A DNA stretch of 63,749 bases from a virus. The DNA is taken from positions 1 to 63,749 of IMG/VR virus record IMGVR_UViG_3300030390_001703; one strand, given 5' to 3'. Below the pieces are notes generated by a model, which saw nothing but the letters and a program-made list of their open reading frames with translations, ran no database searches and was not told where the DNA came from. The translations under genes and the position numbers were made by a program. Positions within the stretch are counted from its first letter, which is position 1. Each line of letters starts with the position of its first letter. Below are positions 30,755 through 61,307 of the stretch, in pieces.

Positions 30755-30879
30755 CAAACCTCACCTTCATGGCCGCAGACGTGGCATTTATACTCCGCTT
30801 TAGGGAGCTTACCCGCCTCGCCCATGAGGACAAGTCGTTTTGGGTCGGGTAATTCAGCATCACATTCTGGGCAAATCAT
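30754..30879 (-). CDS. 41-residue zinc-ribbon protein
   Basis: 41 codons plus stop, linked by ATGA to the nuclease gene upstream and by TGATG to the primase downstream. CPEC at residues 3-6 and CHVC at 32-35 form a minimal zinc ribbon. Being wedged between the Cas4-like nuclease and primase genes suggests a replication accessory, perhaps a primase cofactor; that is inference. Confidence 0.7.
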   Translation of the reverse strand: MICPECDAELPDPKRLVLMGEAGKLPKAEYKCHVCGHEGEV

Positions 30880-31730
30880 TGATCCACCACCGATGGGCCA
30901 CCTGTGAGTTCTGTTTCACAGGACATATGATAATCGCACCATTCGACGCAGAAGTAGTCGTTCCACTTCATCGGCCATTCGTGATCTTTGATGCCCTGCA
31001 CACCTTCTGTGAGGTTCTTTGCCATGCCGTTAAGTGAGCGAGCAGTCACAGGCTCGACAATGATGACTCCCTCGGTGTTGCCGAGGTAAATATCACGCTT
31101 TTGTCGCTTCTGGTTGAGCATTGAGGTTATCATCTTCTCGTCTTGACAATCTGGTGCAATAATGCAGTAGTGAGTGATTTCCTCGGCTGGGAACCGCTTA
31201 GAAAGTGTGAGAACTCGATGATAGAAAGCTAATTCTTTACGATACCTGGACATTTTGGAACTTGTTAGGTTGCCTGTCTTCAGCTCCACTATCATAACGC
31301 CCCCATCTGGGTGTCGGAACAGTCCGTCAATCATGCCGACCAGGGTACAGTCGTTCTCTTCGTCGTATGTCACTATCTTTTCTTCAAGAGAGATAATGTT
31401 GAGAACTCCATGATCGTCACTCATCATTTGTAGCAAGTCGGACAGGTTTTGAACTCCAGAGTCGTGAGCGTACTCTGTCTTTGCTGCTTCTTCTGCAATA
31501 GCAAGTGGGATTGGTCTTGGATCAAAGCTCGGAGTCAAAGCATCTTCCATCACTTGATGAATAGCTGAACCACGAATCATTTGAGGGCTTGCTGGTGTCC
31601 TAATGTCGTAAAGCACACAGTATTGAAACCAGAACTTACGAGGACAACCTAAGTATTGCATAAACGAAGACTTCGATACTCGAAGTGTGCCTTTAGTTCG
31701 TGGATCATACGGAGAGATACCGTCAGTCAT
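30876..31730 (-). CDS. Cas4-like PD-(D/E)XK exonuclease with Fe-S cysteines
   Basis: 284 residues. The RecB/Cas4 nuclease order is present: SKSSFMQYLGCPRKFWFQYC (19-38) with the first cluster Cys, RGSAIHQVME near 53-62, LVGMIDGLFRHPDG then VMIVELKTGN (motifs II and III) and the QxxxY-like block KELAFYHRVL. The C-terminal CVEWCDYHMSC supplies the other three cysteines for a 4Fe-4S cluster. There is no CRISPR array or other cas gene, so a replication or recombination role, as in other archaeal viruses, is more likely than adaptation. Confidence 0.8.
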   Translation of the reverse strand: MTDGISPYDPRTKGTLRVSKSSFMQYLGCPRKFWFQYCVLYDIRTPASPQMIRGSAIHQVMEDALTPSFDPRPIPLAIAEEAAKTEYAHDSGVQNLSDLLQMMSDDHGVLNIISLEEKIVTYDEENDCTLVGMIDGLFRHPDGGVMIVELKTGNLTSSKMSRYRKELAFYHRVLTLSKRFPAEEITHYCIIAPDCQDEKMITSMLNQKRQKRDIYLGNTEGVIIVEPVTARSLNGMAKNLTEGVQGIKDHEWPMKWNDYFCVEWCDYHMSCETELTGGPSVVDQ

Positions 31731-36744: not shown

Positions 36745-36764
36745 GCTCTCACCCAATCAAACCA

Positions 36765-36788
36765 CCCATATAAACAGTCTTACAAATC
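36765..36788 (-). promoter_or_regulatory. Replication-class promoter, copy 2
   Basis: Minus-strand TTTGTAAGACTGTTTATATG fits the repeated promoter. The TATA centre is about 28 bases before ATG 36744 of the C5 methyltransferase, suggesting a very short leader or none. It overlaps the end of the adenine methyltransferase gene by two bases. Confidence 0.65.
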
Positions 36789-37908
36789 AAAGCCATTCAG
36801 CTTTAGGTTTGTCTATGATCTTAATCTCTCCATCATCAAACGACAAATCAGCATTCGACCAATGGGCTATTCGAGTAGCGGCGAGCTCAATGTATTCTGG
36901 TGTCATCTCAATTCCAATGAACTTGAAACCAAGACGTGATGCAGCAATACCTGTGGTTCCAGAACCCATGAATGGATCAAGAACAGTTCCTTCTGGTTGA
37001 GTGACAAGTCGGCATAGATACTCCATGAGAGCAATTGGTTTCACTGTCGGATGAAAGTTATTCTTCTCGTTGCTTCGCTCGTTGCCCGAACCTGTAAGCA
37101 TCTTGCCTCCATCAAGGGAGCTTTGGTTTCGCCCCATATCTTGAGGTTCAATCTCTTCGCATCCCGCATCTCTTTCAGCTTTACTGGCTTTAGCACAGTA
37201 AAAAAATCGGGAGGCTGAACCTTCATCACCGAATGTGTTGAGCGTTCTGTTAGCATAGTTCTTACCAGACATTGATTGACTTTGTGATTCTCTGGTTACA
37301 TGATGAGGCTTACCTTCACCACTCTTAGTATGCGGGAATCTTTCAAGAACTTCTTCTGACCCATCATGTATGATGTTAGCAGGGAAACGACCTTCTGGTT
37401 GCTTATATTCGTCGGTGCTGATACGGCAACCATCAATGTTCAAGCCGCCTGTGCCATGCTCAAGCACATTCTCAACGATAGTGCCGATGAGGGGCTTACG
37501 GGCGACCACGATAGGCTCATGTGCAGGTTTCAGTTGAGTTCCCCAACCATCCCATTGTTGGGCTTTGATAGGTTCAACACCTGCGGCCTTGTCTATTGCC
37601 TTGCTGACATTGTGTGATTTTGGGAAGCCAGAACCATAGAGCCACATGATTTGGTCACGGATTTCAAACCCTGCGTCCTCAATGTTCACCGCCATACGAT
37701 GATAGGTACGAGAGCCAGCGAATGCAAGCAGGTGTCCTCCTGGTTTGAGGACTCTCAAAGCCTCACGCCAAATAGCTACTGAAGGCACATCGTAGTCCCA
37801 CTTCTTACCCATGAATGCAAGTCCATACGGAGGATCAGTGACAATCGAATCAACCGAGTCAGCGGGTAACTTCTTCATTTCACCTAAGCAATTTCCTTCT
37901 AATATCAT
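36787..37908 (-). CDS. DNA methyltransferase (DPPY type, probably N6-adenine)
   Basis: 373 residues from ATG 37908, which overlaps the DNA polymerase stop (ATGA). Beta-class order: catalytic TDPPYGLAFMGKKWDYD near 24-40, then a long recognition region, and DPFMGSGTTGIAASRLG near 332-348 for SAM binding. DPPY indicates amino-methylation of adenine (or N4-cytosine). It is the third methyltransferase in a row; orphan status suggests self-protection. It ends KAEWL. Confidence 0.85.
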   Translation of the reverse strand: MILEGNCLGEMKKLPADSVDSIVTDPPYGLAFMGKKWDYDVPSVAIWREALRVLKPGGHLLAFAGSRTYHRMAVNIEDAGFEIRDQIMWLYGSGFPKSHNVSKAIDKAAGVEPIKAQQWDGWGTQLKPAHEPIVVARKPLIGTIVENVLEHGTGGLNIDGCRISTDEYKQPEGRFPANIIHDGSEEVLERFPHTKSGEGKPHHVTRESQSQSMSGKNYANRTLNTFGDEGSASRFFYCAKASKAERDAGCEEIEPQDMGRNQSSLDGGKMLTGSGNERSNEKNNFHPTVKPIALMEYLCRLVTQPEGTVLDPFMGSGTTGIAASRLGFKFIGIEMTPEYIELAATRIAHWSNADLSFDDGEIKIIDKPKAEWL

Positions 37909-40701: not shown

Positions 40702-41508
40702 TCACATGAGGATAGAAGCCTGGAACACATATCCGTCGCCCCAAGCGTCAAGGATCAGGCGAATGCCTTGTCCTTCTGCTCGGAAGTCGATGAAGTGTAG
40801 CCGAATCTCACCGTCAAGGTTCTTCAGCACGTTCTCAAGACCACCCTCGAAAGTAGCGACCCATGCTTCAACAGGTTCTCCTGGTGTGACTTCAAACGTA
40901 GTGTTTGTTTGTCCCTTGAGTTCGTCGCCTGTGGCAACCGTGAGAACATTGTTGTCGTATGAGAGGTTGTAGCGGTTGAGCTTCTGTCCGTTCATGTTGT
41001 CGCAGCGGAACGCTTCAAAGAGTTCTGTGCTGTTGATGGCCCAAGTCATGAATGCCTTGCGTTCTGTCCCATCACGGAGCTTGTAAGCACCGTTCTGGTC
41101 AATCTGTGCGGCAAGTCCCAGGCTCTTATCGTGCCACTCGCCAATTGTTTCTGTTGAGTGGGGGAAAGCCAAACCGCCTTTGTCGCTGATGATTGTCGTT
41201 TGCTTTGAGCCAGACTTGATGCGGAGCTTTGATCCATCGACGGAGAGGGTTAGGTCTGCGCTGTGGAACTTGAGAACTCCAAGCAGTCGGTCAATGTCTG
41301 GAACTGCAATCTGTCCTGTTCCCTCGGCAGAGATGCCGAAGTGGGAAAGGGAAGTCTTGCCGTCACGAACCAAGCTGGTTGTAGTGCAGCGTTGTTCTTT
41401 GAAGTCAAGAATACAAGCAGCAACTTGAGATTGTGGCTTACCTGCTACAACCTGTGGGCGTTTCGTTAGTTCGAGAAGTCGGGCTAATCCTGTGTTTGAT
41501 ACTGTCAT
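40702..41508 (-). CDS. PCNA-like sliding clamp
   Basis: 268 residues from ATG 41508, the normal size of a PCNA subunit. The two-domain pattern is visible: QIAVPDIDRLLGVLKFHSAD, then LTLSVDGSKLRIKSGSK in the first half, and LSYDNNVLTVATGD with a beta-rich C-terminus in the second. It is diverged, so the call rests on length, this pattern, and the presence of RFC and PolB in the same operon. As a ring it would tether PolB to DNA. GGTGATG precedes the start. Confidence 0.7.
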   Translation of the reverse strand: MTVSNTGLARLLELTKRPQVVAGKPQSQVAACILDFKEQRCTTTSLVRDGKTSLSHFGISAEGTGQIAVPDIDRLLGVLKFHSADLTLSVDGSKLRIKSGSKQTTIISDKGGLAFPHSTETIGEWHDKSLGLAAQIDQNGAYKLRDGTERKAFMTWAINSTELFEAFRCDNMNGQKLNRYNLSYDNNVLTVATGDELKGQTNTTFEVTPGEPVEAWVATFEGGLENVLKNLDGEIRLHFIDFRAEGQGIRLILDAWGDGYVFQASILM

Positions 41509-41520
41509 TGTCAATTTTCA

Positions 41521-41895: not shown

Positions 41896-42867
41896 TCACC
41901 ACCTTAGTTCGGGTATTCCAGACCAAACAACTTCGCCGTTCTTGACGGTGAGGATCGTGCGTTCTTGTCCGATTAAATCCATTCCTTGACCCTTGACTTC
42001 TTCGATGCGGGCTTTGATAGCGAACTCGCCATCATTGAGAGTCTTGTCAGCATAGACACCAGCGGAGCTGTCTGCTCGCTTTTGGTATCGACCCATGAAC
42101 AATTGCTGGCTCATGATTCGCTGTGTTCCTTCGACCCAATCTGGCTTCTCTCCAACCTTCATCAATCCTTTAGCTCCGTTGCCGAGGTCAGCGAATTGCT
42201 TGTTGTCCTTGAGATGGAAGGTGAAGTACACCTTGTCGATTGGTAGTCCGTGAACTCTGGTGATTGTGTCACGGAACAATTTGTTGCGTGTGCGCCATTC
42301 AGCTTGGTTGAACCTGTCACCGTCTTCGACGTTGATTGGGTTCTTTGAGCGATTCATCAAGAACCATGTCATAGCGTTCTCGCACCACTTCATGTATGTT
42401 GATCCACCATCAAAGATAACGGCTGCAAAGTCGCCTGGGTTTTCTTGGATTTCTTGAGCCATGAGATTGACAAAGGCATTTGTCTTGTCGATCAATGCGG
42501 GCCACTTCACGGACATATCTTCGTTGAAGATGGAGTCGTCTGTCAAGTCCAAGAGAGGTAGGATCAGAATGTTCTCGTCACCAGGGTAGGTGTGATTGAC
42601 AGTTTCGGATGCCGAGTTGTCGAAGTCGAAGATAACGACTTTCTTACCCTGCTTGATCTGTTCATCACTTCGAGATAGGTAAAGAGCAAGACCCGTCTTG
42701 GCCGTGTTCTCTTTGCCTACAAGAGCCATGCGTTGTTGAGGAACCGCTGCCTTCTTCTTGTTGAAGAGGTTACGGTAGTAGTCCACTCCGTAGTCGTTGG
42801 TAGCTTCTGGAGCTTTACCTTCTCCTGCTGTGGCTGCTTTACCACCGTCGCCGCCCCAAGCCGCCAT
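41896..42867 (-). CDS. RecA/Sak4-like ATPase
   Basis: 323 residues; ATG 42867 shares a base with the previous stop. GKENTAKTG near 51-59 is a Walker A-type loop (Ala replaces the usual last Gly). KKVVIFDFDNSAS near 75-87 and FAAVIFDGGSTY near 145-156 (Walker B-like) follow in RecA-fold order. Size and layout fit the single-domain Sak4/RadA-like recombinases encoded by many viruses, which load on ssDNA together with an SSB; the neighbouring gene is an RPA-like protein. Confidence 0.7.
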   Translation of the reverse strand: MAAWGGDGGKAATAGEGKAPEATNDYGVDYYRNLFNKKKAAVPQQRMALVGKENTAKTGLALYLSRSDEQIKQGKKVVIFDFDNSASETVNHTYPGDENILILPLLDLTDDSIFNEDMSVKWPALIDKTNAFVNLMAQEIQENPGDFAAVIFDGGSTYMKWCENAMTWFLMNRSKNPINVEDGDRFNQAEWRTRNKLFRDTITRVHGLPIDKVYFTFHLKDNKQFADLGNGAKGLMKVGEKPDWVEGTQRIMSQQLFMGRYQKRADSSAGVYADKTLNDGEFAIKARIEEVKGQGMDLIGQERTILTVKNGEVVWSGIPELRW

Positions 42868-44108
42868 CAAGCATCCCATCCTGTTGAGGTGGATTCATCA
42901 GCTTCTTCCGGTGCTGGTGCAGCAGAGGCGATTGAGTCACAGACCCACCATGCGGTTGAGTCCATTCGGCATTCGTCATCACGGCTGATCCATGCTCGAC
43001 CAACGACTGCAATTTCCGAGCCAACGCCGAAGTCCATACGGAACTCATGCTCTGCTGGAACATAGACGTCGATTGAAGGTGCAGTTGAGGTTATGTCAAG
43101 GTCGCCAACGGTGACGATGTAGCCGCCCTTCTCGCGTGGGTCGATGTGAACGACTTCGCCGTGAACAGCACAGAGCTTGTCCCACTTCTGGTCGGTGTCA
43201 GCCCACTTGGTAACGTGTTCTGGAAGCAAGTCGAAGGAAGGAAGGAAGTCGCCTTGAGGCCAAACACCATCAACGAGATCAACGATGAGGCCATTTGCTC
43301 CTTCTGCGCTAACAGCGAAAGGAGGTGCAGCGAAGACAGTTGCGAGGGATTCGTCAATGACGAACTTGGTGACACCAGGCTTTGCGTAGCCCACACCGTT
43401 GCGACCCATGCGAACAGGCAAGCGACCTGGTACGAAGGTTGGTTGGTTCTCAAGAGCAAGGTCGTTCTCGAACTTAATCGTGATGAGTTCCACATCAGCA
43501 GAACCACGCTTGCCGAGGAACAGGCACTCACGAACAGGTTCGGACAGCTTGCGAGCGCGACCATATCGAGGGTTTGCATCTCCGCTTTGGAAAGTTGGCA
43601 TGGTGTTGTTCTCAATGATCTGGAACCATGTGGAAGCGTCGAGTTCTTGCACGTGCTTTGGCAAGGAGTGGATCACGATTTCACTTGTTTCTTCTTCAAG
43701 AGAAGAGAGTTTGAAAGTCGGGTTGACGGTGTGAGTGAACGAGCCATCAAGGTTGTCTTCAATCAAAGTGATTCGACCTTGAGCGACGAGTGCAGTTCTG
43801 GCAACTTCGTCAAGAGTACCAAGTGTGTTCTTCATCTTGGCATATCCAGACTTGGAGAAGTCCTTGTATCGAGGAGCTGAAACGAACATTCCTGTAAGAA
43901 CTTCTGCGCCACTGCGAGAGAGTCGTTGAGCTTCTGCTTTGAGTTGACGACCTGCAACCCGAATCGCAAGGATCGAGCATTCGTCTTCAGTCTTGTTGGC
44001 AGCAGTCCAAGCCGATTTGTTCTCGACCAGCACTTCTGTAATTCGGGCGTTCAAGGTATCAAGTGTGACACCGACATTCTTTGCTACTGTTTCTTTAAGT
44101 TCCGACAT
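42867..44108 (-). CDS. RPA-like single-stranded DNA-binding protein
   Basis: 413 residues. The N-terminal ~70 residues are helical; the rest is beta-rich, with a closing OB-like segment (YVPAEHEFRMDFGVGSEIAV, then VGRAWISRDD). The last ~20 residues are acidic (APAPEEADESTSTGWDA), as in SSB/RPA tails that recruit partners. It is directly upstream of a RecA-like gene and downstream of a strong replication promoter. The assignment rests on fold pattern and context, not on a clear motif. Confidence 0.55.
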   Translation of the reverse strand: MSELKETVAKNVGVTLDTLNARITEVLVENKSAWTAANKTEDECSILAIRVAGRQLKAEAQRLSRSGAEVLTGMFVSAPRYKDFSKSGYAKMKNTLGTLDEVARTALVAQGRITLIEDNLDGSFTHTVNPTFKLSSLEEETSEIVIHSLPKHVQELDASTWFQIIENNTMPTFQSGDANPRYGRARKLSEPVRECLFLGKRGSADVELITIKFENDLALENQPTFVPGRLPVRMGRNGVGYAKPGVTKFVIDESLATVFAAPPFAVSAEGANGLIVDLVDGVWPQGDFLPSFDLLPEHVTKWADTDQKWDKLCAVHGEVVHIDPREKGGYIVTVGDLDITSTAPSIDVYVPAEHEFRMDFGVGSEIAVVGRAWISRDDECRMDSTAWWVCDSIASAAPAPEEADESTSTGWDA

Positions 44109-44174: not shown

Positions 44175-44438
44175 TCATTCTTTAAAGTCTGGGTGCTTAA
44201 AATCATCACCGAACTCATCTAATTCTTGCATGATGTGAGTTGCGACGTGAGCTTGAGATGCGTTATGAACAAGAGAAGTAGGACCAAGACAAGCCCAATC
44301 GCACAGATCGCAGGTTCCTTTCACGATGAACTCATTGAATAGGACTATGCCGTTGATCCTAAGCACAGGTATTGTATCTCCGACTTCATACCTGGTGCCG
44401 TCTGGGTGTAGCCAATAATCTTCGGGTCCAGCAATCAT
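44175..44438 (-). CDS. Small C2H2-type zinc-finger protein
   Basis: 87 residues from ATG 44438, which overlaps the dpdA-like stop (ATGA); AGGAGG is eight bases upstream, inside the end of that gene. CDLCDWACLG near 43-52 plus HNASQAHVATH makes a plausible C2H2 finger. The N-terminus is beta-like. It may assist the adjacent transglycosylase, or be independent. Confidence 0.6.
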   Translation of the reverse strand: MIAGPEDYWLHPDGTRYEVGDTIPVLRINGIVLFNEFIVKGTCDLCDWACLGPTSLVHNASQAHVATHIMQELDEFGDDFKHPDFKE

Positions 44439-45223
44439 AACCATTCCCTCCTGTCTAATGTTCCTAAAGGAGAACTAACAACCTTCTCTCTCCATGCTAA
44501 TGCAAACCCAAGACAATTAGCGCACGACTTTCTCTTGGATAGGTTGTTGGATTTGCACCAATCGCACCTCTCACCAACACCCATTCGTGCTGCGTAAGAC
44601 CAGGCCATCGAATCTGCCGACTGTAAGTATTGTCCGTACTTGGATAAGCCGCTTGTCTTGACCCCAAATCCGTGAATGTTATCAAGCCCAAGCTCGTAAA
44701 GCTGGCTCATAATAGCTTCAATCTCATACGTTGCTTGTCTTCGACATACTGATCCTACACCGACTGTGGATTCCTTAGTCAAATCAATACCTGCTTCTTT
44801 GTATTGCTCGAAACAATTTGAGTAGTCACGCATAGTCCATCCCTGGAGTACAGGAACAAAAGGCAAGTCTGGAGCTGTGTCACGAAGATAAAGAAAGTTC
44901 TCAACGGTTAGGTCTTGGTGATCTTGAACTGTAAGTCCTGTCTTCTCTGTCATGTGTGGTTCAACCATCCAATCTTGAGGTGCAGCCCAATTCAAACCGC
45001 CCCAATCCATGTAGCGACCAACATCTGCTATGTATTCATCTGGAGTTATGATCCACTTCCCATGTTTAGCTATCTCGCTAAACCCGCCAGAATCTAACGA
45101 CCATTCACAGGTCGGTTGTCGATTTATCTTAGGTTGTCGTAGCAGTCGTTTGTAACTTATGAAAAGAGGAACTTCGGTTTTCTCAAGCATAGGAGGTTCG
45201 TGAACGCCGAGATAGAACTTCAT
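44435..45223 (-). CDS. dpdA: DpdA-like DNA 7-deazaguanine transglycosylase (TGT superfamily)
   Basis: 262 residues from ATG 45223 (ATGA overlap with rfcS). The TGT-like barrel pattern is visible: LDSGGFSEIAKHGKW near 43-57, NWAAPQDWMVEP near 78-89, LPFVPVLQGWTMRDY near 119-133, TVGVGSVCRRQ near 152-162, HGFGVKTSGL and SADSMAWSYAAR. The C-terminal CDWC...CANC cluster would bind zinc. This compact family in viruses is associated with inserting 7-deazaguanine bases into DNA. No preQ0 synthesis genes (folE, queD, queE, queC) are visible here, so the precursor would have to come from the host. Confidence 0.78.
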   Translation of the reverse strand: MKFYLGVHEPPMLEKTEVPLFISYKRLLRQPKINRQPTCEWSLDSGGFSEIAKHGKWIITPDEYIADVGRYMDWGGLNWAAPQDWMVEPHMTEKTGLTVQDHQDLTVENFLYLRDTAPDLPFVPVLQGWTMRDYSNCFEQYKEAGIDLTKESTVGVGSVCRRQATYEIEAIMSQLYELGLDNIHGFGVKTSGLSKYGQYLQSADSMAWSYAARMGVGERCDWCKSNNLSKRKSCANCLGFALAWREKVVSSPLGTLDRREWL

Positions 45224-46128
45224 TCGCACAGCAACCTGCAAAAGTTATGAGCAACAATCAATGGATCAACACCCATCAATATATCACGCTCGCTTTGAAT
45301 TGCAGCATCTAAGACCTTTACTTTGTTTGATTGACTTGCTGGTGAGTCCATAGCATAGAGGAATACTTCTCTCACACGTTCTCTGGTAAGTGCTGGCCTG
45401 TTTTCAATAAGGGCTGTGACTGATTTCTGGACTACCTTCTCGCTCATACATAGACGAAGAACAAGGTCGGCATCGAATCCAGACGACTCAAGTTCTGCTA
45501 TGAACTTACGAAGTGACTTTGGTTCAAGGTACGCTGCCTTCTGTAAAGCTCCGATACTGTTCCTTAGATCGCCACGATGCTTCTTTGCTATCACTTTGAT
45601 AGCATGAGCATCAACCTCAACGCCTTCATACGCTGCGACGGTAGCCAAGCGTTGCTCAACAAGTTCAGCAGAGATAGGCTCGAAGGTTCGGACTTGGCAT
45701 CGTGATTGTAGCCAGGGCGATACCTTGCTAAGATCGTTGCACGTGAGAATGAAGTAGCCTTGAGCATCTTCGATGACTCCCTTCAAAGCATCTTGAGCTT
45801 GAGGTGTGAGGCGGTCTGCCTCATCTAAGAAAAAGACTGTTTCCCATTGACCGATTCTCGACATAGGAATGATGTACTCTTCAATGAACTCAATGCCTCT
45901 GGTTTTCTTCGAGGATGCGTTGAACTTGTGGAGCTGCCAGCCGAGGACTTCAGCGACGATGTAAGCAAGTGTTGTCTTGCCCGTTCCAGGCTCGGATGAA
46001 TTGAATAGAAAATGTTGCATAGGTGCTTTGCCTTCAAGGATCAGACGAACCTCTTCGACTATGCTCTCTTGACCCATGAATCCGTCAAGGGTCTTTGGTC
46101 TGTGCTTCTCCCACCATATCTCTTTCAT
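45220..46128 (-). CDS. rfcS: Clamp loader small subunit (RFC-S)
   Basis: 302 residues. KHRPKTLDGFMGQ at the start, Walker A NSSEPGTGKTT near 43-53, Walker B FFLDEADR near 98-105, sensor LTCND near 127 and the SRC motif (WLQSRCQVRTF near 137-147) define an archaeal RFC small subunit. The C-terminal helical collar follows. It loads the PCNA-like clamp. No RFC large subunit is obvious; the host's or the unassigned 47826-48509 gene might supply one. Confidence 0.9.
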   Translation of the reverse strand: MKEIWWEKHRPKTLDGFMGQESIVEEVRLILEGKAPMQHFLFNSSEPGTGKTTLAYIVAEVLGWQLHKFNASSKKTRGIEFIEEYIIPMSRIGQWETVFFLDEADRLTPQAQDALKGVIEDAQGYFILTCNDLSKVSPWLQSRCQVRTFEPISAELVEQRLATVAAYEGVEVDAHAIKVIAKKHRGDLRNSIGALQKAAYLEPKSLRKFIAELESSGFDADLVLRLCMSEKVVQKSVTALIENRPALTRERVREVFLYAMDSPASQSNKVKVLDAAIQSERDILMGVDPLIVAHNFCRLLCE

Positions 46129-47565: not shown

Positions 47566-47835
47566 TTATGGATTGCCCATACTCATTCCAACTGCCATAG
47601 GGTCTGGCGAAGCAGAAGATTGTGTTACCTTCACTGTCGATCCTTCGATTTGAACAGTATGTTCGCTGTCTTGCATGGCTTTGCGAATAGGTCTTACTAT
47701 CTCAACTTCCATCTTGATTGAGGCAGCAATAGGAAACCAAAGGCAAGAAATGATGAGAAAGAATCCCATGTCGCCGGTTAGAAGAGAACCTCCGAGAACA
47801 AAAGCAGTGACATGATTCATCGTGATTATAGCCAT
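47566..47835 (-). CDS. Small membrane protein
   Basis: 89 residues (ATG 47820 would give 84). One or two hydrophobic segments occur: VTAFVLGGSLLTG and MGFFLIISCLWFPIAAS. A polar C-terminal tail follows. The start lies inside the end of the upstream gene (GGATGGCTATAA). Function unknown. Confidence 0.55.
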   Translation of the reverse strand: MAIITMNHVTAFVLGGSLLTGDMGFFLIISCLWFPIAASIKMEVEIVRPIRKAMQDSEHTVQIEGSTVKVTQSSASPDPMAVGMSMGNP

Positions 47836-48509
47836 CCTAACACCGCCTGTTTTGTTTTCTTAACGCCCTTTGGGAGAGCCACAGGATCAATGGTACGAAT
47901 CTTGTTAGCTACATCTGGTGCTAAACGAATCAAGTCTTCTGTATATAGATCGGACAACCGAAAGCCATGAGGCACTTCGTAGTCCTCTTTCTTTGGCTTG
48001 AGTCTTCGAGCAGGTTTGTTTGGATTGATGGAGTATGTGAACACCGCATGAGCGTATTCGTCTGGGAGTGTGAACGAAACAAGGGCCAGCCTTCGAGCAG
48101 TGTCTATGTCTTCTGGATGAGCGTTGCGCCATACCGCCAGAGCAAGAGGGACAGGTAAGGACTTGACTACTTGGTGGGCTGCATCTCTGTTCCTCCATTT
48201 CATCATAGCACTGATACCTGGCCCGATAGGATCAGACTTAGCCTTGAGAGAATCATGCACCACTACGAAGTCCTCCGACTTCTTGGTGAGCTTAGGCTTC
48301 TTGTCGAGGATGATGACAAGACGATACGATACTATGTGCGCCCAATCCATAATGTCGTCTTCTGTGAACTTCTTAGTGTGAAGAATGTACGTCGTGCCTG
48401 GAGCTGAAGGAATGCACGTCATTTCACGGTGCATAACGATGTAGTCACCCACCTTGAAGTCGGCATCGTCACCAGCAAGGATCACGATACCCACGAAGCA
48501 AGCCCCCAT
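47826..48509 (-). CDS. Unassigned replication-region protein
   Basis: 227 residues (a GTG at 48485, overlapping the previous stop, is an alternative start). An N-terminal beta segment (DADFKVGDYIVMHREM) leads to alternating strands (YRLVIILDKKPKL), a helical middle (HQVVKSLPVPLALAVWRNAH) and a basic C-terminus. The 'LAVWRN' helix bundle faintly recalls clamp-loader collar domains, so a loader partner for rfcS is one possibility, but no ATPase motif is present. Unknown. Confidence 0.55.
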   Translation of the reverse strand: MGACFVGIVILAGDDADFKVGDYIVMHREMTCIPSAPGTTYILHTKKFTEDDIMDWAHIVSYRLVIILDKKPKLTKKSEDFVVVHDSLKAKSDPIGPGISAMMKWRNRDAAHQVVKSLPVPLALAVWRNAHPEDIDTARRLALVSFTLPDEYAHAVFTYSINPNKPARRLKPKKEDYEVPHGFRLSDLYTEDLIRLAPDVANKIRTIDPVALPKGVKKTKQAVLGWL

Positions 48510-53987: not shown

Positions 53988-54124
53988 AGGTGTTCACCTC
54001 TCATTCGTGCAGGTAATACTCTCGTCATATTGCATTTATCGCAAGCATATCCACCTTGACACAGGGTATGCCCCGTTGCTTCAAATGTCCCTTGACATAA
54101 CTTGCACTTGTATGAAGAACTCAT
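53984..54124 (-). CDS. 46-residue zinc-ribbon protein
   Basis: 46 codons plus stop, ATGA overlaps both ends. CKLC (7-10), C (22) and CDKC (28-31) form a ribbon; the tail encodes the next AGAGGTGAACA ribosome site. Unknown. Confidence 0.65.
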   Translation of the reverse strand: MSSSYKCKLCQGTFEATGHTLCQGGYACDKCNMTRVLPARMRGEHL

Positions 54125-54330
54125 GCAATCAGCTCCTTAGCGAAGGCGATAGATGCCGAGAAGTCAAACGGATGATTGTTATACATCTCCAGAGTCTTGA
54201 TGATGGTTCGCACATGGTCGAAGTTGTATTGATCCTCATCGGTTTCTCCATCAGCAAGGCTTTGAACCTGGTCTAATTGAAGGCGTTGAAGGGCTTTAAC
54301 GACAATTATAAGGTCATCCAAGCCAATCAT
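54121..54330 (-). CDS. Small helical protein
   Basis: 69 residues, ATGA overlaps both ends. Helical repeats (LDDLIIVVKALQRLQLDQVQ) and an acidic centre. Unknown. Confidence 0.5.
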   Translation of the reverse strand: MIGLDDLIIVVKALQRLQLDQVQSLADGETDEDQYNFDHVRTIIKTLEMYNNHPFDFSASIAFAKELIA

Positions 54331-55001
54331 TCTTCTTCACGCTCCTCTTTTCCGGTGAGTAGTGAGCGCATGAGTTCTGGATCGCATTGAGCTTCACGCT
54401 CTGCACCCATGATAACCTCGCAGTCAATGTCGAGGTCGCCTTCGGTGAAGCCAGCAGCCTTGAGAGCGTCACGAACCTTCTTGACTACCCTTTGAACCCA
54501 CACGTCAATTTGGTGGCTTGCTACGTCGTCTTTGCGCTGGCCTTCAATTTTAAGAGTCAAGAGTCTGGAAGAACGGTTAAGTTCAACCGTAGCATCAGCT
54601 CCATTTACCTTGAGTTGTAAGTCGCTCCACATGGTTGATCCATCGGCAGCAGTTCCATGTGAGAAGCGGATAGGAACGCCCATGTAAGGCACATCTGGAA
54701 CGGCTGATTGTTCTTTTTCAACGATGCCAACTTCAAGACCATGCTTTTCAGCCAGGGCAAGAATCCAATCGGCTTCAGCTGTCGTGAGTCCAGAAGGTAA
54801 CTCTTCACCTTCAACAAAGTTCGTCGTCGCTTTGAATGTCAGTTCTTCAAGGTTGTTTGTTTTACCTGTCAAGTCCCACATGATACCATGTTCGGCCATG
54901 ATTTTCTTAGCGTTAGGATCATGGGTTCCTTGTAGCAGCCCTCTTACTGTGACTGTCTTTCTGGCGTATCGGCTCGTTTCAATTTCTTTTTGGTCGGACA
55001 T
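54327..55001 (-). CDS. Unassigned 224-residue protein behind a small-gene promoter
   Basis: 224 residues, the largest in its operon. It has an alpha/beta N-terminal part (TVTVRGLLQGTHDPNAKKIM), a beta-rich middle and a C-terminal helical domain with DVWVQRVVKKVRDALKAAGF and an acidic end. It sits directly behind the promoter at 55034-55056 with AAGGAGAG before the ATG, so it should be strongly expressed. No family recognised. Candidate for a key host-interaction protein. Confidence 0.6.
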   Translation of the reverse strand: MSDQKEIETSRYARKTVTVRGLLQGTHDPNAKKIMAEHGIMWDLTGKTNNLEELTFKATTNFVEGEELPSGLTTAEADWILALAEKHGLEVGIVEKEQSAVPDVPYMGVPIRFSHGTAADGSTMWSDLQLKVNGADATVELNRSSRLLTLKIEGQRKDDVASHQIDVWVQRVVKKVRDALKAAGFTEGDLDIDCEVIMGAEREAQCDPELMRSLLTGKEEREEE

Positions 55002-55002
55002 T

Positions 55003-55227
55003 TTAGTTCTCTCCTTTTGGGGTGTGGTTAGTGCTTACACTATCTTCTATATCAAGAGTGCTGTTGAATAGGTGCTGATTTTCAGCTATTTGTTCGTCGG
55101 TCATGATCTCGAAAGCTGTCGAAAGCTGCGCCTCAAGCTCATGGATTCGTTGCTTCAGAGTAGCTATTTTAGCATATCGAAGTTCAAGCCTGGATTTCCA
55201 GAACTCGTTTCCTAATTGAACGCTCAT
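55003..55227 (-). CDS. Small coiled-coil protein
   Basis: 74 residues. A heptad helix (IATLKQRIHELEAQLSTAFE) fills the middle. Its 3' end contains the promoter at 55034-55056. It is one base away from the next gene's start. Unknown. Confidence 0.5.
   Translation of the reverse strand: MSVQLGNEFWKSRLELRYAKIATLKQRIHELEAQLSTAFEIMTDEQIAENQHLFNSTLDIEDSVSTNHTPKGEN
55034..55056 (-). promoter_or_regulatory. Small-gene-class promoter, copy 1
   Basis: Minus-strand CTTGATATAGAAGATAGTG, then TAAG. The TATA centre is about 50 bases before ATG 55001, so the predicted leader is about 25 bases and carries AAGGAGAG. Two near-copies occur at 56 and 58 kb in the same position relative to genes. Confidence 0.75.
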
Positions 55228-55463
55228 TCAAACACCACCTGTTCAAGAAAGAACTCGCCTTCATTGGTTTCAAAATTGGTGATGCAATTGCTCGCCAAGA
55301 ACTCCTTGATTGAATCGTAGTATGTTTGATCTTTGAGGTATGTTTTGATTTTCCCTCGCAGGTATTTTTCTGCATCAGCGAATCGCTTGAAGAACGTCAA
55401 AGGAGGTGAGCATTTTTGAGAATAGCCAGAGCCAGCCGTTTCAATAACAATCCAACGCTTCAT
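55224..55463 (-). CDS. Hypothetical protein
   Basis: 79 residues from ATG 55463, which overlaps the previous -VSA stop (GCATGA). Alpha/beta (RWIVIETAGSGYSQKCSPPL, ending FFLEQVVFE). Part of the chain of -VSA cassettes. Unknown. Confidence 0.55.
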   Translation of the reverse strand: MKRWIVIETAGSGYSQKCSPPLTFFKRFADAEKYLRGKIKTYLKDQTYYDSIKEFLASNCITNFETNEGEFFLEQVVFE

Positions 55464-55792
55464 GCGCTCACCTCGTTGTTTCGGTCGTTGACGCACCAGG
55501 AACAAACATACCACTCGACATTCATTTTGTCGATGGTTTCTTTTTCTGGACACTTTTGATATTCTTTTGGATCGTGAACTTCGTACATCATCACGTAGGG
55601 TTGGGGTTCCTCGCAGCAGTCGCAGAAGCTCCCGCCACCATGACCAAAGGCAAGCTCTTTGAGAAGCCAAAGCTGGCGAGGTGTAAAATCAGCTTTTTCA
55701 TTGAAGTCGTGTGTGGAAAGGGCGAGAATATCAATCAATTCATCATAGAGTGTGGTGCGCTCTTCAGCTCCGGTCAAATCCCAGAGAGTCAT
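55460..55792 (-). CDS. Zinc protein ending in -VSA cassette
   Basis: 110 residues. CDCCEEP near 57-63 and C..C...C (CPEK..CSWC) form a zinc site; the rest is helical. It ends NEVSA, whose codons contain the GAGGTGAGC ribosome site and overlap the next ATG. Unknown. Confidence 0.6.
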   Translation of the reverse strand: MTLWDLTGAEERTTLYDELIDILALSTHDFNEKADFTPRQLWLLKELAFGHGGGSFCDCCEEPQPYVMMYEVHDPKEYQKCPEKETIDKMNVEWYVCSWCVNDRNNEVSA

Positions 55793-56088
55793 TCAACCAC
55801 CTCCATTTGAAGGATCACAATGACTTGAGATTGGTCGTATGAATCGCTGCGGTATCGAATGTGCATCTCATAATCTGGTGCGAGCATAAGGTCTAATTTA
55901 TGAAGGTCGTTTGAAAGCGAGGTGCTTTGGGTCATATACAATTTGAGGGTATGTCCTGCGTCGAGGATGCTTGTGATCTGCCTCATGTAAGAATTGACAT
56001 TCTTACCGAAGAATGAGAAGTCATTCATACTCATGTGCAATCGTGCTTCTGGGTTCGGGTTTTTTGGGGTCGGGTTGTTTTTAGGCAT
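55789..56088 (-). CDS. Hypothetical protein behind a small-gene promoter
   Basis: 99 residues. Asn/Pro-rich start (MPKNNPTPKNPNPEARLH), then alpha/beta (ISFFGK..YMRQITSILDAG, ending with strands EMHIRYRSDSYDQSQVIVIL). ACAGGAGAG precedes the ATG and the promoter at 56113-56136 lies just upstream. Unknown. Confidence 0.55.
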   Translation of the reverse strand: MPKNNPTPKNPNPEARLHMSMNDFSFFGKNVNSYMRQITSILDAGHTLKLYMTQSTSLSNDLHKLDLMLAPDYEMHIRYRSDSYDQSQVIVILQMEVVE

Positions 56089-56267
56089 TTTTTTTCTCTC
56101 CTGTATTTTAGTCTAAGCACTATTTTCTATAAGAAGCTTTTGTTTGGAAGGGTGTTTAACTGCGCTGGCCTGGAAAAAGCTGAAAAAGCTGTTCTCGAAA
56201 GAAGGATCAAGGAGCTGAAGCAATAGCAAGCTCGATAATTTAGCTAAAAAAGCACGTTGATTGGACG
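56089..56267. other. 179-base non-coding spacer with repeat modules
   Basis: It contains promoter copy 2 and the shared modules TGCGCTGGCC (56161-56170), CTCGAAAGAAGGATCAAGG and GGAGCTGAAG (56211-56220). The downstream part (AAGCACGTTGATT...GACGTC) also recurs, rearranged, near 58505. No gene is seen. Confidence 0.6.
56113..56136 (-). promoter_or_regulatory. Small-gene-class promoter, copy 2
   Basis: Minus-strand CTTCTTATAGAAAATAGTG aligns to the copies at 55 and 58 kb. The TATA centre is about 42 bases before ATG 56088; predicted leader about 17 bases with AGGAGAG. Confidence 0.72.
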
Positions 56268-56546
56268 TCATGCGACCACCCAATAATCGTGAGGATCACC
56301 CTTGACAATCGGACAGAGGCCACAACCTGGCGACCAACTGCACCTATACGGTATGAATAGGATGACCTTTCTCTTCGAGCCTCGCCCACGATAGACGGGA
56401 AACCAAAGCGAGATGCCAGCGTCGGCCATCATCCGAGGGGTGCGTGAAGTCGTGGAGTCCCAAACCGCACCGGCAGCCTTGAGGGTTTGACGGTTCTCTT
56501 TGTGCCTCGCCCAAGCTTGAGGATCAGGGGAATAGGTGCGGCTCAT
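56268..56546 (-). CDS. Basic Cys-containing protein
   Basis: 92 residues from ATG 56546, overlapping the previous -VSA stop; GGTGAGCGC precedes it. Basic, with an aromatic beta-rich end (RKVILFIPYRCSWSPGCGLC) and several Cys. Last gene before a non-coding spacer. Unknown. Confidence 0.5.
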   Translation of the reverse strand: MSRTYSPDPQAWARHKENRQTLKAAGAVWDSTTSRTPRMMADAGISLWFPVYRGRGSKRKVILFIPYRCSWSPGCGLCPIVKGDPHDYWVVA

Positions 56547-56767
56547 GCGCTCACCCTGCGGTCGTGGCCTATGGCAGCGTCCCAGATCGGGGTCATATCG
56601 TCGTCCCAGGGGTCTTTCAATCCCCAAGCCGCTGCCACCTGTTCATTCAAGTGCATATCGTCGTAAGTATCGTCTGGATGAAACCACCCATACCTACTCC
56701 AATGCTTCCAGAAAGCCACCGCTTCTTCAACGGTGGTCGGCGTCATGGTTGCAGGTTCAAAGGTCAT
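56543..56767 (-). CDS. Small acidic helical protein ending in -VSA
   Basis: 74 residues, Trp/Asp-rich (FWKHWSRYGWFHPDDTYDDM, then WDDDMTPIWDAA). Ends RRVSA with the cassette. Preceded by GAGGTGATTGT. Unknown. Confidence 0.5.
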   Translation of the reverse strand: MTFEPATMTPTTVEEAVAFWKHWSRYGWFHPDDTYDDMHLNEQVAAAWGLKDPWDDDMTPIWDAAIGHDRRVSA

Positions 56768-57258
56768 ACAATCACCTCACCATTCGGTTCAAAGCAGAAG
56801 CAAGTAGTCGCATCATCGGGGCAGGTTGCACACACCACCTCTTCACGGATAGCACGCAGGAAAGCGAGGCGACGGGTTTCATTCTTGCCGTGGTCGCTCT
56901 GTTTCCATTCATCAAACCAAGCGAGAGCCTCGGCCTCGGTGTCGAAGTAGTCGGGCCAACATACAATTTGGTTTGAACCGTCTTCACAAATGTATGAGCC
57001 AAAGGAAATGTCTTCATCAAGAGCCTCAAGCATCTCTGTGAAGGTGCGTGGGAGGTCTGTTTCGTCGTCGTTTTCAACTGCCCATGTGATGTTCTCAACG
57101 AATTGGCATTGGGTGGTTTTTACCACTACATCGGGGCGCATTTGACTTGGGTATTGAGTGGAAGGATCAGTGATTTCCCCGCCCATGTCAAACATATACG
57201 GGTTGTTTTTGAGGAAGTCCACCAAGAGAGAACGGAGTGAAATAGCTGATTCACTCAT
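56764..57258 (-). CDS. Acidic protein with Cys C-terminus
   Basis: 164 residues from ATG 57258 (cassette start). Acidic; the central part includes CWPDYFDTEAEALAWFDEWK, a small alpha/beta module similar in pattern to ones in the 58 and 59 kb genes. The end has CATCPDDATTCFCF, a likely zinc site. Unknown. Confidence 0.55.
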   Translation of the reverse strand: MSESAISLRSLLVDFLKNNPYMFDMGGEITDPSTQYPSQMRPDVVVKTTQCQFVENITWAVENDDETDLPRTFTEMLEALDEDISFGSYICEDGSNQIVCWPDYFDTEAEALAWFDEWKQSDHGKNETRRLAFLRAIREEVVCATCPDDATTCFCFEPNGEVIV

Positions 57259-57401
57259 GCGCTCACCTTCTTGCACTTGAGGCATTGAGGGCCATGATCG
57301 GTGAACGAGGGTTCATCAATCCATAGAAGGGAAACGATGCGCCCGCAGTCTTCACAGGTTGGGGCTTTGGGGAGGTCTGTCGGCCATCCTTCGGGGTTCA
57401 T
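57255..57401 (-). CDS. 48-residue zinc-ribbon protein, cassette on both sides
   Basis: 48 codons plus stop. CEDC (16-19) and CLKC (42-45) form a ribbon, and the end is KKVSA. It starts and ends in GAGGTGAGCGCATGA-type junctions. Unknown. Confidence 0.6.
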   Translation of the reverse strand: MNPEGWPTDLPKAPTCEDCGRIVSLLWIDEPSFTDHGPQCLKCKKVSA

Positions 57402-57517
57402 GCGCTCACCTCTTGAGGTTCTTGCTCGTTCTCGGCTTCCCATTCGCTAATATCAAAGCCGTTCGCGTCGCAGAACATAACGAGAGATTGAAACAATTTT
57501 TCAAAATCTCTGTTCAT
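57398..57517 (-). CDS. 39-residue protein, cassette on both sides
   Basis: 39 codons plus stop, starting MNRDFEKLFQSLVMFCDANG and ending EPQEVSA. Acidic helix. Both ends are -VSA cassettes, which is the main evidence that such a short frame is real. Confidence 0.55.
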   Translation of the reverse strand: MNRDFEKLFQSLVMFCDANGFDISEWEAENEQEPQEVSA

Positions 57518-57942
57518 GCGCTCACCTCGTCGGCGTGGTCTGCGCCACAGAAGGGGCAGAGCGTCGAGTGTTGCTCGGAGGTTTCTGCGACAAAGGCGGT
57601 TTGGTTGAGGACGGCAGGGGAAGCCCCTGGACAGGGCGTAAGCACCTTGTTTTCTGTCGCCGCTATGATGGCATCAATAGCGACAGCTGAAGGCCATAGA
57701 GCAACCCCTTCGGACAGCATGAAAAAGAACTCTTCGGGTTCCATGCGGTCGTGGGCCACATCAGCGATAGCCGACAAAGGATCGAACACATTCTCGATGG
57801 GGGAGAATGCATCGTAAGAATCGAGAATCTCTCGAAGCACCCACACAAACGGAGGGGCGTTTTCTTCGCAGGATTCCAGGGCGGCGTTGTGTAGGTCTTG
57901 GTGGTATTCCTCGACTTGAAGTTCAATGTGTTGGGGGTGCAT
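57514..57942 (-). CDS. Acidic helical protein with zinc ribbon end, cassette
   Basis: 142 residues, acidic. Helical centre (FFFMLSEGVALWPSAVAIDA). The C-terminus CPFCGADHADEVSA has a zinc-type Cys pair and the cassette. One base before the next gene's end. Unknown. Confidence 0.55.
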   Translation of the reverse strand: MHPQHIELQVEEYHQDLHNAALESCEENAPPFVWVLREILDSYDAFSPIENVFDPLSAIADVAHDRMEPEEFFFMLSEGVALWPSAVAIDAIIAATENKVLTPCPGASPAVLNQTAFVAETSEQHSTLCPFCGADHADEVSA

Positions 57943-58299
57943 TCAAACCAACCCCGCTTTGAGAACTGCGAGAACTTCACGGCTTCGTCGGCCATCGTCG
58001 CCAGTGACAATATCAACGGCTTCACGGATTTGTGCGAGGGTGAAAGTCTTGGCTGTTTTTGGCTTGGTTGCGCTGGCCTTGTTTTGAGTCGGCGTTGATC
58101 CTTCTTCAAGGATGGTTACGAAGCGGTCGTCCTTTGGGACAGTCCAGACAGTGCCTACGGCGTGGGCCTTGCGACTGCCTCGCACTTCTGTTTGCTCAAT
58201 CTTCAACTTCTTGGGGTTGACCTTAACGATCTTGCCCACTGTTTTTTCTCCATTTGGTCGCCCAAATGAAACGCTCATTCCTATTTTGTATTCTTGCAT
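57943..58299 (-). CDS. SH3/KOW-like basic protein behind a small-gene promoter
   Basis: 118 residues from ATG 58299, chosen over ATG 58308 because AGGAG is nine bases before it. The N-terminal ~60 residues (IGMSVSFGRPNGEKTVGKIV, KVNPKKLKIEQTEVRGSRKA) form a small beta barrel of KOW/SH3 type; then a Lys/Thr/Ala linker and a short helical end (TLAQIREAVDIVTG). Possible RNA or DNA binding. The frame contains one TGCGCTGGCC repeat. Confidence 0.6.
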   Translation of the reverse strand: MQEYKIGMSVSFGRPNGEKTVGKIVKVNPKKLKIEQTEVRGSRKAHAVGTVWTVPKDDRFVTILEEGSTPTQNKASATKPKTAKTFTLAQIREAVDIVTGDDGRRSREVLAVLKAGLV

Positions 58300-58517
58300 T
58301 TTTTTCATCTCCTGTGTTTTTTGGTCGGGTGTTATTCTGTCCTATCACTATGTACTATATCAAGGCTTCTTTTTTATTGGTTCTTTTTTGGTCTGGTTTT
58401 TTGGGGGTTCGGTTCCTGGTCAGCTATTTTTAGCTGAAATTAGCTACGCGAGGGAAGCTCGAAAGAAAGTGCTTCAGCTCCTGGATTTTCCAGGCTTCGA
58501 CGTCGCAAGTACGTTGA
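58300..58517. other. 218-base non-coding spacer with promoter, hairpins and repeat modules
   Basis: It contains promoter copy 3, the hairpin CAGCTATTTTTAGCTG (58421-58436), the palindrome CCTGGATTTTCCAGG (58480-58494) and CTTCAGCTCC (58472-58481, the inverse of GGAGCTGAAG). Near 58507 AAGTACGTTGATT resembles 56252. The hairpins follow the 58518 stop on the minus strand and may terminate that operon. Confidence 0.6.
58342..58364 (-). promoter_or_regulatory. Small-gene-class promoter, copy 3
   Basis: Minus-strand CTTGATATAGTACATAGTG, then ATAG. The TATA centre is about 59 bases before ATG 58299, leaving a leader of about 34 bases with AGGAG. Confidence 0.72.
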
Positions 58518-58892
58518 TTATGCACCCCATGAAATGACGGTGGCAGCGGCGATTTGAACGGCTTGGTCGATCCACTCGACCGCTTCGGCCATGTTCTCAA
58601 AGTGCCAAGTCAATGCACCAGAGCAACCGTTTGAGCCACCAGTGAGGCCGAGAGCCTCCATTGAGGCCACTGCTGCCTCTGGCTCATCGGATGAGAGTTC
58701 ATCAACGAACACCTCAACGAAGTGAGGTTCAAGGGCTTCTGCGGGCGTTCTTGGTGCGCTTGCCCAACCTGCATGGCAGAGGGTGAACTCGACCGTTTCT
58801 GCGTGGGTGTGCTTCGGAACAATCATGCGAGTGATGAACGCCTCAAAGCCTCCACCGATCCGCTCACAGGTCATCCCTGCGGGTGCGTTCAT
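58518..58892 (-). CDS. Acidic alpha/beta-repeat protein
   Basis: 124 residues; the ATG shares a base with the previous stop (TGATG). The module FVDELSSDEPEAAVASMEAL, then GLTG, and the closing WHFENMAEAVEWIDQAVQIA, are alpha/beta units resembling modules in the next gene upstream (58892-59545). Acidic. It may be a duplicated family. Unknown. Confidence 0.55.
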   Translation of the reverse strand: MNAPAGMTCERIGGGFEAFITRMIVPKHTHAETVEFTLCHAGWASAPRTPAEALEPHFVEVFVDELSSDEPEAAVASMEALGLTGGSNGCSGALTWHFENMAEAVEWIDQAVQIAAATVISWGA

Positions 58893-59545
58893 CAATAGCC
58901 CCCCTGCACATAGATTTCAACGGCTACACCGTCAAGGCCCAGAGCCTCGACCGCATCGCTGGCACTGTCGGCCTCGTCTGTGGTGGCATAGTGGGCGTAA
59001 ATGGTGCGGGAGTCACTGCACCCCTCCGCGCCTCCGTCTGTCTGCTCTTGGGTGCTTAGAGCGGCCATGATGAGGCCGTCAACAAAGTCGTGAAGTTCGG
59101 GGTGAAGTTGGGTCGGGTCGTATGTGACTTGAACCAAAGGATCAGCCAGCGGCTCAAGTTCCAACTCATCGGCAAGATTTGAAGCCGCTTGGTTGGCATC
59201 GGTCAAAATTGTTTGAACGCATGGTTCATGAATGAAATACTCATCCATGAGGTTCAAGGATCGAACTTCTTGAACAAATTGGCGGGCGGCTTCGTCGGTG
59301 TCAAATACGAAGGTGCGGGAGAAGTCGCCACTGCCTTCCATGAGAACGCTGAAGACTTGATGAGGTTGGATGGTTGCCGATTCTGCGAGGCTTTGGGCTT
59401 CGCTCGCCATCTGCCAAAAGTCTTCATTTGAAGTGTCCTCTGGAAATACATCTTCGAGAATGCTTTCGTGATAGTCGGGGGCGAGGCTTTCGCCCCATCC
59501 CAAAATACTCAAAGCACCTTGATGAATCAACGCATCTCGATTCAT
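58892..59545 (-). CDS. Acidic alpha/beta-repeat protein
   Basis: 217 residues, strongly acidic. It contains FVFDTDEAARQFVQEVRSLN near 78-97 and a C-terminal module YAHYATTDEADSASDAVEAL then GLDG. The second matches the 58518-58892 protein (…SMEALGLTG). Tandem paralogy suggests duplication. Strong negative charge would also suit a DNA mimic that blocks a host DNA-binding defence; that is speculation. Confidence 0.55.
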   Translation of the reverse strand: MNRDALIHQGALSILGWGESLAPDYHESILEDVFPEDTSNEDFWQMASEAQSLAESATIQPHQVFSVLMEGSGDFSRTFVFDTDEAARQFVQEVRSLNLMDEYFIHEPCVQTILTDANQAASNLADELELEPLADPLVQVTYDPTQLHPELHDFVDGLIMAALSTQEQTDGGAEGCSDSRTIYAHYATTDEADSASDAVEALGLDGVAVEIYVQGGY

Positions 59546-60341: not shown

Positions 60342-61307
60342 GTACCTCCATTCACTACCTCCCTAATAAGGGGCTATGTAAGGAGAGGCCAAACGCTGCA
60401 CTGCGCCCCTGCCAGAAGGCTAAACGCATGACGTCGAGCCTGTTGATATTGAAAACCAGGGCTAAACGCTGCACTGCAAGCCTGTTGAAAATAAGGGCTA
60501 AATAAGGGACAAAATAAGGGAGTGGTAGGGTATGCACCCAAACAGCTAAACGGCCTTGTAGGGGTGTCCCTGGGTCCAGAAAGGGCAATTTCCTGTAATC
60601 GACGGGAGAGGGTACCCGAAGGTGGTAGGACCACCGACCCCTTCAAATCGCTTGTAGGGGTGTTCTAAGGCTCGGAAACGGCATAGTGCAAAATGCCCTC
60701 ATTGATCCTTTGCGCTGGCCCTTGAAATCTGTTGAAGCACCGCTTGAAATGAGCTTTTTGCTAAATGTCATTTGAAAAGGAATTAAATGAAAATCAAGGA
60801 GCTGAAGAAAACGGATCAAGTGATTTTTTTGCGCCGAGTACCAAATGATTAGTTGGTCACAAAATTAGACCAGGTACCAAAATGAAACCAAGTGAGAACG
60901 TCGCATTAGGTGTACTTTTTGCACCGAATTGAATCTCGAAGGAATCTCGAAGGAAATTGATGAAGGATCATGGTTCGGGGGTTTGGTGATTTTGAAGGGC
61001 TTTTCTTTTTTGGGGCATTTAGCTAAATCATGGCTCTTTTGCTCCTCCCGCGTAGCAGGGCCTGGATTTTCCTGGCGAGCAGGAAAAATCTCGAAGAAAA
61101 AAGCTGATGGCTTCGCCCACTTCAGCTCCGAGATTTCGGGGCTTCACGTCAAGCGGAGGCGGTTTATGGAGGATCAGCGGGCTTACAAATCAACCCCCAG
61201 ATTCCCAGCGAGCGCGAGCAGGGGCAGCAGTGGGGCCAAGATGAAGGCCAAGATTGGAAAGCAGAACGCGGGCATCCTGCAAGAGTAGCCGAAGCAGTGA
61301 ACTTCAA
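60342..61307. other. 966-base non-coding region with iterons, candidate origin or regulatory centre
   Basis: Largest gene-free stretch. It contains repeats of GGCTAAACGC type at 60387, 60418, 60459, 60496 and 60544, AAACGCTGCACTGC twice (60391, 60464), AGCCTGTTGA twice (60437, 60479), CTTGTAGGGGTGT twice (60555, 60651), several TAAGGG words, the hairpin GGTGGTAGGACCACC (60621-60635), and farther right TGCGCTGGCC (60711), GGAGCTGAAG (60798) and CTTCAGCTCC (61120). A plus-strand frame at 60929-61288 has no clear gene character. Confidence 0.6.
60387..60556. repeat. Iteron array
   Basis: Five degenerate copies of a GGCTAAACGC-type unit at 60387 (GGCCAAACGC), 60418, 60459, 60496 (GGCTAAATAA) and 60544 (AGCTAAACGG), spaced about 31-48 bases. 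Two of them extend into AGCCTGTTGA. Direct repeats of this spacing are typical of initiator-binding iterons. Confidence 0.6.

Follow-up and report, generated by a model that had tools for sequence, protein, structure and literature searches.

The window analysed here, the full 63,749-base virus record IMGVR_UViG_3300030390_001703, carries a short sequence, termed the VSA joint, that recurs at five junctions between small genes of its minus strand. At each of these junctions the joint combines the stop codon of one gene with the ribosome-binding site and start codon of the next, and the unrelated upstream proteins all end in VSA. Comparisons of related virus genomes show that genes have been gained, lost and moved with breakpoints at these joints, and, judging from the sequences alone, the joint is probably a translational-coupling element that doubles as a short tract of homology for recombination.

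The joint and the proteins that end in it

Exact copies of GTGAGCGCATGA lie on the minus strand at 55460-55471, 56543-56554, 57255-57266, 57398-57409 and 57514-57525, in agreement with an earlier note on this DNA, which had proposed that the genes at 55463, 56546, 57258, 57401 and 57517 join through one sequence. The invariant core of the five joints is 13 nucleotides long (GGTGAGCGCATGA). The note had also placed a GAG before this core, which is found at three of the five joints (55463, 57401 and 57517), the remaining two reading AAGGTG (57258) and AGGGTG (56546) instead. Chance alone would yield 0.34 matches with at most one mismatch over the whole window and both strands, and none of the shuffles attained 6. 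The sixth exact copy, at 54362, runs on the plus strand, antisense within the conserved gene 54327-55001, and is not a joint.

All five joints are ATGA overlaps between co-directed open frames, with the ribosome site (GAGGTGA or GGTGA) inside the upstream gene before each ATGA, an arrangement that the earlier note had read correctly. With the GCGC spacer the joint reads GAGGTGAGCGCATGA, and the whole element is taken up by the ribosome site, the spacer and the overlap; in the upstream reading frame GGTGA forces Val, and AGC-GCA encodes Ser-Ala. Neighbouring joints use the same ribosome site with other spacers (GAGGTGATTGT at 56764, GAGGTGGTTGA at 55789 and GGTGGTGTTTGA at 55224). The GCGC spacer is present at 5/8 window joints of this type, as compared with 0/17 in TerL relatives (P = 0.001), and a general requirement for this spacer is therefore not supported.

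The -VSA ending is a property of the joint and not of the protein, because orthologues of the same proteins end otherwise in L127 (also L191; contig IMGVR_UViG_3300035162_004748, the source of the nearest relatives). The counterparts of F, N and J end there in VIE, VVA and MGS, respectively, and that of M has VSA where the window has VVE, which bears out the earlier suggestion that these C-termini stem from the junction rather than from function. For annotators, a shared -VSA C-terminus here thus carries no information on protein function. The product of gene I continues in the window from EEV through 18 amino acids to VIV but ends in EEVSA in L127, and the two proteins cease to be homologous at an internal GAGGTG, which corresponds to the first half of the joint. 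The genes on either side appear to be coding, since differences between the window and its L127 orthologues are concentrated at third codon positions. Pfam and PHROG searches yielded no function for the proteins of these single-gene cartridges, and no homologues of gene I were found outside L127. Several of the smallest cartridges (35-50 amino acids; window 57255-57401 and arrays in contigs L204 and L203, described below) are Cys-rich and zinc-ribbon-like.

Gene order and breakpoints in related viruses

Comparison by blastn reveals the same blocks in different order in the window (A B C D / E F G H I J K / M N O P) and in L127 (A B C X K D / E F Y J Z / M I N W O P). Genes X, Y and W of L127 are without equivalents in the window, Z is the counterpart of the N-terminal portion of window gene C, and I and K are displaced. 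The exact joint is present in L127 at Y/J, M/I and I/N, and a one-base variant occurs at W/O. Directly past the joint, identity at the changed ends is 0.36-0.51, which is the random level (null 0.44, standard deviation 0.05), whereas the unchanged ends mostly retain 0.67-0.85 identity. Joints O/P and E/F are kept and identical between the two genomes, yet they are not VSA joints. The N-terminal part of gene C is a separate gene elsewhere in L127, reflecting a fusion or fission within the island (window 58892-59545; L127 9132-9599 and 12040-12318).

A second relative, G053 (also L193; IMGVR_UViG_3300000973_000003, 64,792 bases), follows the order of the window over 1-55.2 kb and 62.7-63.7 kb, with approximately 35-95% protein identity. 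The variable island (Table 1) retains in G053 recognisable counterparts of A, B, M, O, P and, weakly, N, in partly changed order. Among the 38 window overlaps of the Shine-Dalgarno type, VSA joints account for 5/13 in the island and 0/25 outside it (P about 0.003), and close variants of the joint (GAGGTGAGCGAGTGA, GAGGTGAGCGCGTGA and GAGGTGAGCGAATGA) are present in the island of G053. The earlier note had called for a comparison of gene order and would have taken a fixed order with diverged junctions as refutation; the related genomes present the opposite, with reshuffled genes and homology that breaks at the joints.

Viral contigs and 257 Gb of cellular genomes were also scanned for two copies of the joint 85-115 bases apart, which returned five viral contigs (L069, L203, L204, L205 and L206) and two places in the cellular genomes. 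Replication genes of the archaeal type are present in L069, L203 and L204, according to their frames and, for L204, a PolB match; L205 and L206 look bacterial. L069 (also G005) and L204 (also G055), which derive from separate metagenomes and are apparently archaeal viruses, are 92-97% identical over roughly 38 kb. Eight related joints stand in a row within 1.25 kb of L204, with genes of about 34-75 codons between them. Relative to this array, two segments are missing from L069, each running exactly from one joint to another: a 50-codon gene (149 bases) and, at a separate place, 755 bases that hold several genes.

Both of the single joints in L069 are chimeric, the left side matching the left outer joint of L204 and the right side the right outer joint. 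At L069 8146, the upstream side agrees with the left joint at 38/40 positions and the downstream side with the right joint at 40/40, as compared with 16/40 and 8/40 for the opposite sides; at 8045, the right side agrees at 39/40 and the left flank is 98% identical over 50 nt. The exchange interval is GAGGTGAGCGCATGAGCG (18 nt) in one indel and (G)TGGAGGTGAGCGCATGA (17-18 nt) in the other, and in one case the shared bases extend beyond ATGA into the next gene. A third difference between L069 and L204 is a replacement flanked by the variant joints GAGGCGAGCGCATGA and GAGGTGACGGCATGA. Assembly error seems an unlikely source of the joint-to-joint differences, given that the repeat is 18 bases long and the genomes also differ by 3-8% in point changes. 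Breakpoints at the cassette, where the earlier note had proposed to look for recombination, are found in this pair as whole-gene indels that leave chimeric joints.

Additional relatives were reached solely through genes Q, O and R1. Gene R1 (window 54121-54330) is shared at about 40-42% with positions 2394-2642 of L094, a 96-kb virus contig in which three VSA joints adjoin the R1 counterpart; gene Q was not found in TerL-related contigs.

Proposed mechanism and alternative explanations

The joint is a compact connection between genes, composed of the ribosome-binding site GAGGTGA, a fixed 4-nt GCGC spacer and an overlapping stop/start ATGA. Given this composition, (E)VSA is the necessary end of the upstream protein, and translational coupling of the downstream gene is predicted; coupling at ATGA overlaps has been measured in Haloferax volcanii (PMC6728339). 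Because identical bases lie between neighbouring small genes, they could also act as short direct repeats, and recombination or template switching between two copies would remove, insert or move whole genes. The repeated joint sits exactly between genes, and hence any such exchange would handle complete genes and regenerate a working joint. Such exchanges would yield a genome that is collinear except for a variable island made up of single-gene cartridges, and replication slippage or template switching would be expected to leave identical scars. It is likely that homology at the joint drives the exchange, perhaps by way of the Sak4-like annealing protein of the virus, which was found by Pfam and PHROG searches and gave no match in a six-frame search. 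For Sak4 of phage HK620, annealing of single strands has been reported even at a divergence of up to 20% (PMC5928155).

Several observations weigh against this mechanism. A homology of 13-18 nt is short for homologous recombination, and the informative genome pairs number two and were compared at the level of sequence only. Some of the moves in L127 have their breakpoints at joints that lack the VSA sequence (C'/X, X/K' and J'/Z), and the cassette is therefore not required for exchange; two more indels between L069 and L204 end at other ribosome-site/start sequences. The exact joint is found at 8/18 changed and 0/8 kept adjacencies (pooled, P = 0.03), a difference that is only suggestive because kept adjacencies are counted in both genomes, and a synteny test against G053 across all overlaps goes in the expected direction without reaching significance (P = 0.14). 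Among the matches listed, single copies of the joint occur in many unrelated viral contigs and phages, and so the joint may in part be a convergent restart signal. Selection for intact genes would, moreover, by itself leave the surviving breakpoints between genes. The cartridge swapping that the earlier note envisaged is supported by the exchange of genes at joints in the relatives, with the qualifications that not all moves use the cassette and that homologous recombination at the cassette is a presumed cause.

The foremost alternative is that selection acts alone, such that GAGGTGA-GCGC-ATGA is an efficient restart signal that has arisen or been kept repeatedly, while illegitimate recombination shuffles genes and only breaks at gene ends survive. 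This explanation accommodates the full ribosome site at a constant distance, the single copies in unrelated viral contigs, the paired copies in the bacterial-looking L205 and L206, and the breakpoints at joints that lack the sequence. It fits poorly with the lack of any preference for GCGC in the TerL relatives, with the kept joints of the same operons, which are not VSA joints, and with the chimeric joints of G005 and G055, which share 17-18 exact bases that once run past ATGA. Selection alone is regarded as a serious though unlikely explanation.

Integron gene cassettes form arrays of single small genes that are gained and lost as units. A site-specific system of this kind, in which a viral recombinase would recognise the joint much as an integron integrase recognises attC, would be consistent with the gain and loss of single genes from joint to joint and with the L204 array, in which as many as eight related joints follow one another. 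Integrons, however, depend on a tyrosine integrase and a folded attC. No PF00589 tyrosine recombinase was found in the virus records G000, G053, G005 and G055, although 14/14 controls matched, other recombinase families not having been searched; as single-stranded DNA, the four joints that were folded are no more structured than shuffles (z-scores -0.7 to 0.3), and the joint sequence varies among copies. An integron-type integrase or folded site is thus rejected, and site-specific exchange in general seems very improbable. That -VSA is a functional tag, as its presence on five unrelated small proteins might suggest, can be dismissed with near certainty, because the tag is missing from L127 orthologues, whose C-termini differ, and identity at the DNA level continues through the stop and next start codon, in contrast to the C-terminal [EGD]W[LI] found on other proteins, which is kept between the window and G053 regardless of the stop codon.

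If the joint does serve both coupling and exchange, small accessory genes could be gained or lost without breaking the operon, which provides a testable model. It is a tentative possibility, and one that at present looks rather doubtful, that apparently archaeal tailed viruses share a general cartridge system, in which arrays of single small accessory genes with the translation joint as exchange site would be common to distant lineages, trading through the viral annealing protein and landing correctly wired for expression.

Known systems, the window virus and its other features

In function, the joint comes closest to the ATGA chains in the nin region of lambda and to the boundary sequences of lambdoid phages; it is not an integron. 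The genes of the nin region are interlinked in a chain (Kroger and Hobom 1982, cited in PMC8022706), and the region resembles the island in its tightly packed, mostly non-essential small genes, which are linked by ATGA and vary in content among relatives. It belongs to an unrelated virus with a bacterial host, and PMC8022706 describes the ATGA motif alone rather than one identical 13-18-nt joint, whereas in the window one joint is used repeatedly and coincides with breakpoints. Lambdoid phages have conserved boundary sequences (Clark et al. 2001; Susskind and Botstein 1978; cited in PMC3029335), which are likewise short sequences shared at gene borders and have been proposed to allow recombination of modules. 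The window virus has such a sequence at its borders, and gene content breaks on it, though not at every breakpoint; the shared sequence may be what causes the recombination. Unlike the lambdoid boundaries, one and the same short sequence here separates consecutive individual genes within an operon, evidently serves translation, and belongs to a virus with archaeal-type replication genes.

Two mycobacteriophage systems are also comparable. The SAS of cluster K is a 13-bp repeat that contains a ribosome site and immediately precedes many unrelated genes, in some instances including the stop codon of the gene upstream; a role in translation initiation has been proposed for it and no gene exchange reported (PMC3203893). 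Its anatomy resembles that of the joint, but the sequence differs (GGGATAGGAGCCC, 0 matches here with two mismatches allowed), and the window joint is fixed to ATGA overlaps. At Island3 genes 67/68 in cluster I, neighbours with similar C-terminal sequence are explained by repeat recombination that adds or removes a gene (PMC3029335); this is one event at a repeat of about 50 bp, as opposed to several events at a recurrent 13-18-nt joint. It is a long-standing question whether mosaic virus genomes arise from random breaks followed by selection or are guided by short shared borders. Here the border sequence is visible, recurs in one operon and has a second function as stop, ribosome site and start, and exchange is seen in two genome pairs.

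The window combines tailed-virus genes (terminase, portal) with a family B polymerase, a clamp-loader-like AAA protein and a Cpn60/TCP-1 chaperonin, and a frame at 40702-41514 appears PCNA-like by eye. Structural genes occupy the plus strand to 28 kb, and the remainder is mainly on the minus strand. With its tailed-virus genes alongside archaeal-type replication genes, the virus looks like the magroviruses of marine Poseidoniales in gene content. No link to a cellular host was found through TerL among 84,980 cellular genomes, and no relatives at the DNA level were found in the phage collection.

Table 1. Positions of the joints, the island with its genes, and other features of the window
Feature	Coordinates	Strand	Remarks
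VSA joint N/O	55460..55472	-	GGTGAGCGCATGA
VSA joint J/K	56543..56555	-	GGTGAGCGCATGA
VSA joint H/I	57255..57267	-	GGTGAGCGCATGA
VSA joint G/H	57398..57410	-	GGTGAGCGCATGA
VSA joint F/G	57514..57526	-	GGTGAGCGCATGA
Variable island in otherwise collinear genome	55224..62740		non-collinear with G053; contains all five VSA joints
Gene E	57943..58308	-	first in operon; 91% identical in L127; E/F joint kept there, not VSA
Gene F	57514..57942	-	142 aa; ends EVSA, L127 orthologue EVIE
Gene G	57398..57517	-	39 aa; ends EVSA; not seen in L127
Gene H	57255..57401	-	48 aa; two CxxC pairs; ends KVSA; not seen in L127
Gene I	56764..57258	-	164 aa; between M and N in L127, ending EEVSA there
Gene J	56543..56767	-	74 aa; ends RVSA, L127 orthologue MGS
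Gene K	56268..56546	-	92 aa; upstream of D in L127
Gene M	55789..56088	-	99 aa; ends EVVE, L127 orthologue EVSA
Gene N	55460..55792	-	110 aa; ends EVSA, L127 orthologue EVVA
Gene O	55224..55463	-	79 aa; kept in L127 and G053; O/P joint conserved, not VSA
Sak4-like ATPase, candidate annealing recombinase	41896..42879	-	PF13479 E 3e-9; PHROG Sak4-like E 0.002; putative link to joints
PD-(D/E)XK exonuclease-like protein, possible partner	30876..31730	-	Pfam/PHROG searches; putative partnership
[EG]W[LI]-ending proteins	28876-29682, 34017-35144, 35146-36756, 36787-37965, 37905-40142, 44435-45241, 47826-48509	-	

Seven minus-strand proteins, including PolB, methyltransferase-like proteins and DpdA, share an [EG]W[LI] C-terminus that is mostly the same in G053 whatever stop codon comes next. 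In contrast to VSA, this ending has the appearance of a genuine protein motif and may be a docking tail. The DpdA family protein (44435-45241; PF23859, E 1e-74) suggests 7-deazaguanine modification of the viral DNA. Promoter-like repeated blocks of the TTGATATAG...ATAGTG type precede E, M and Q (58339-58389, 56075-56109 and 55031-55081), occur in L127 too, and seem to split the island into transcription units. Three 25-nt near-repeats (GGCYAAACGC...CCTG) at 60387-60484, in a stretch without clear genes (about 60350-61300), are perhaps origin or regulatory repeats.

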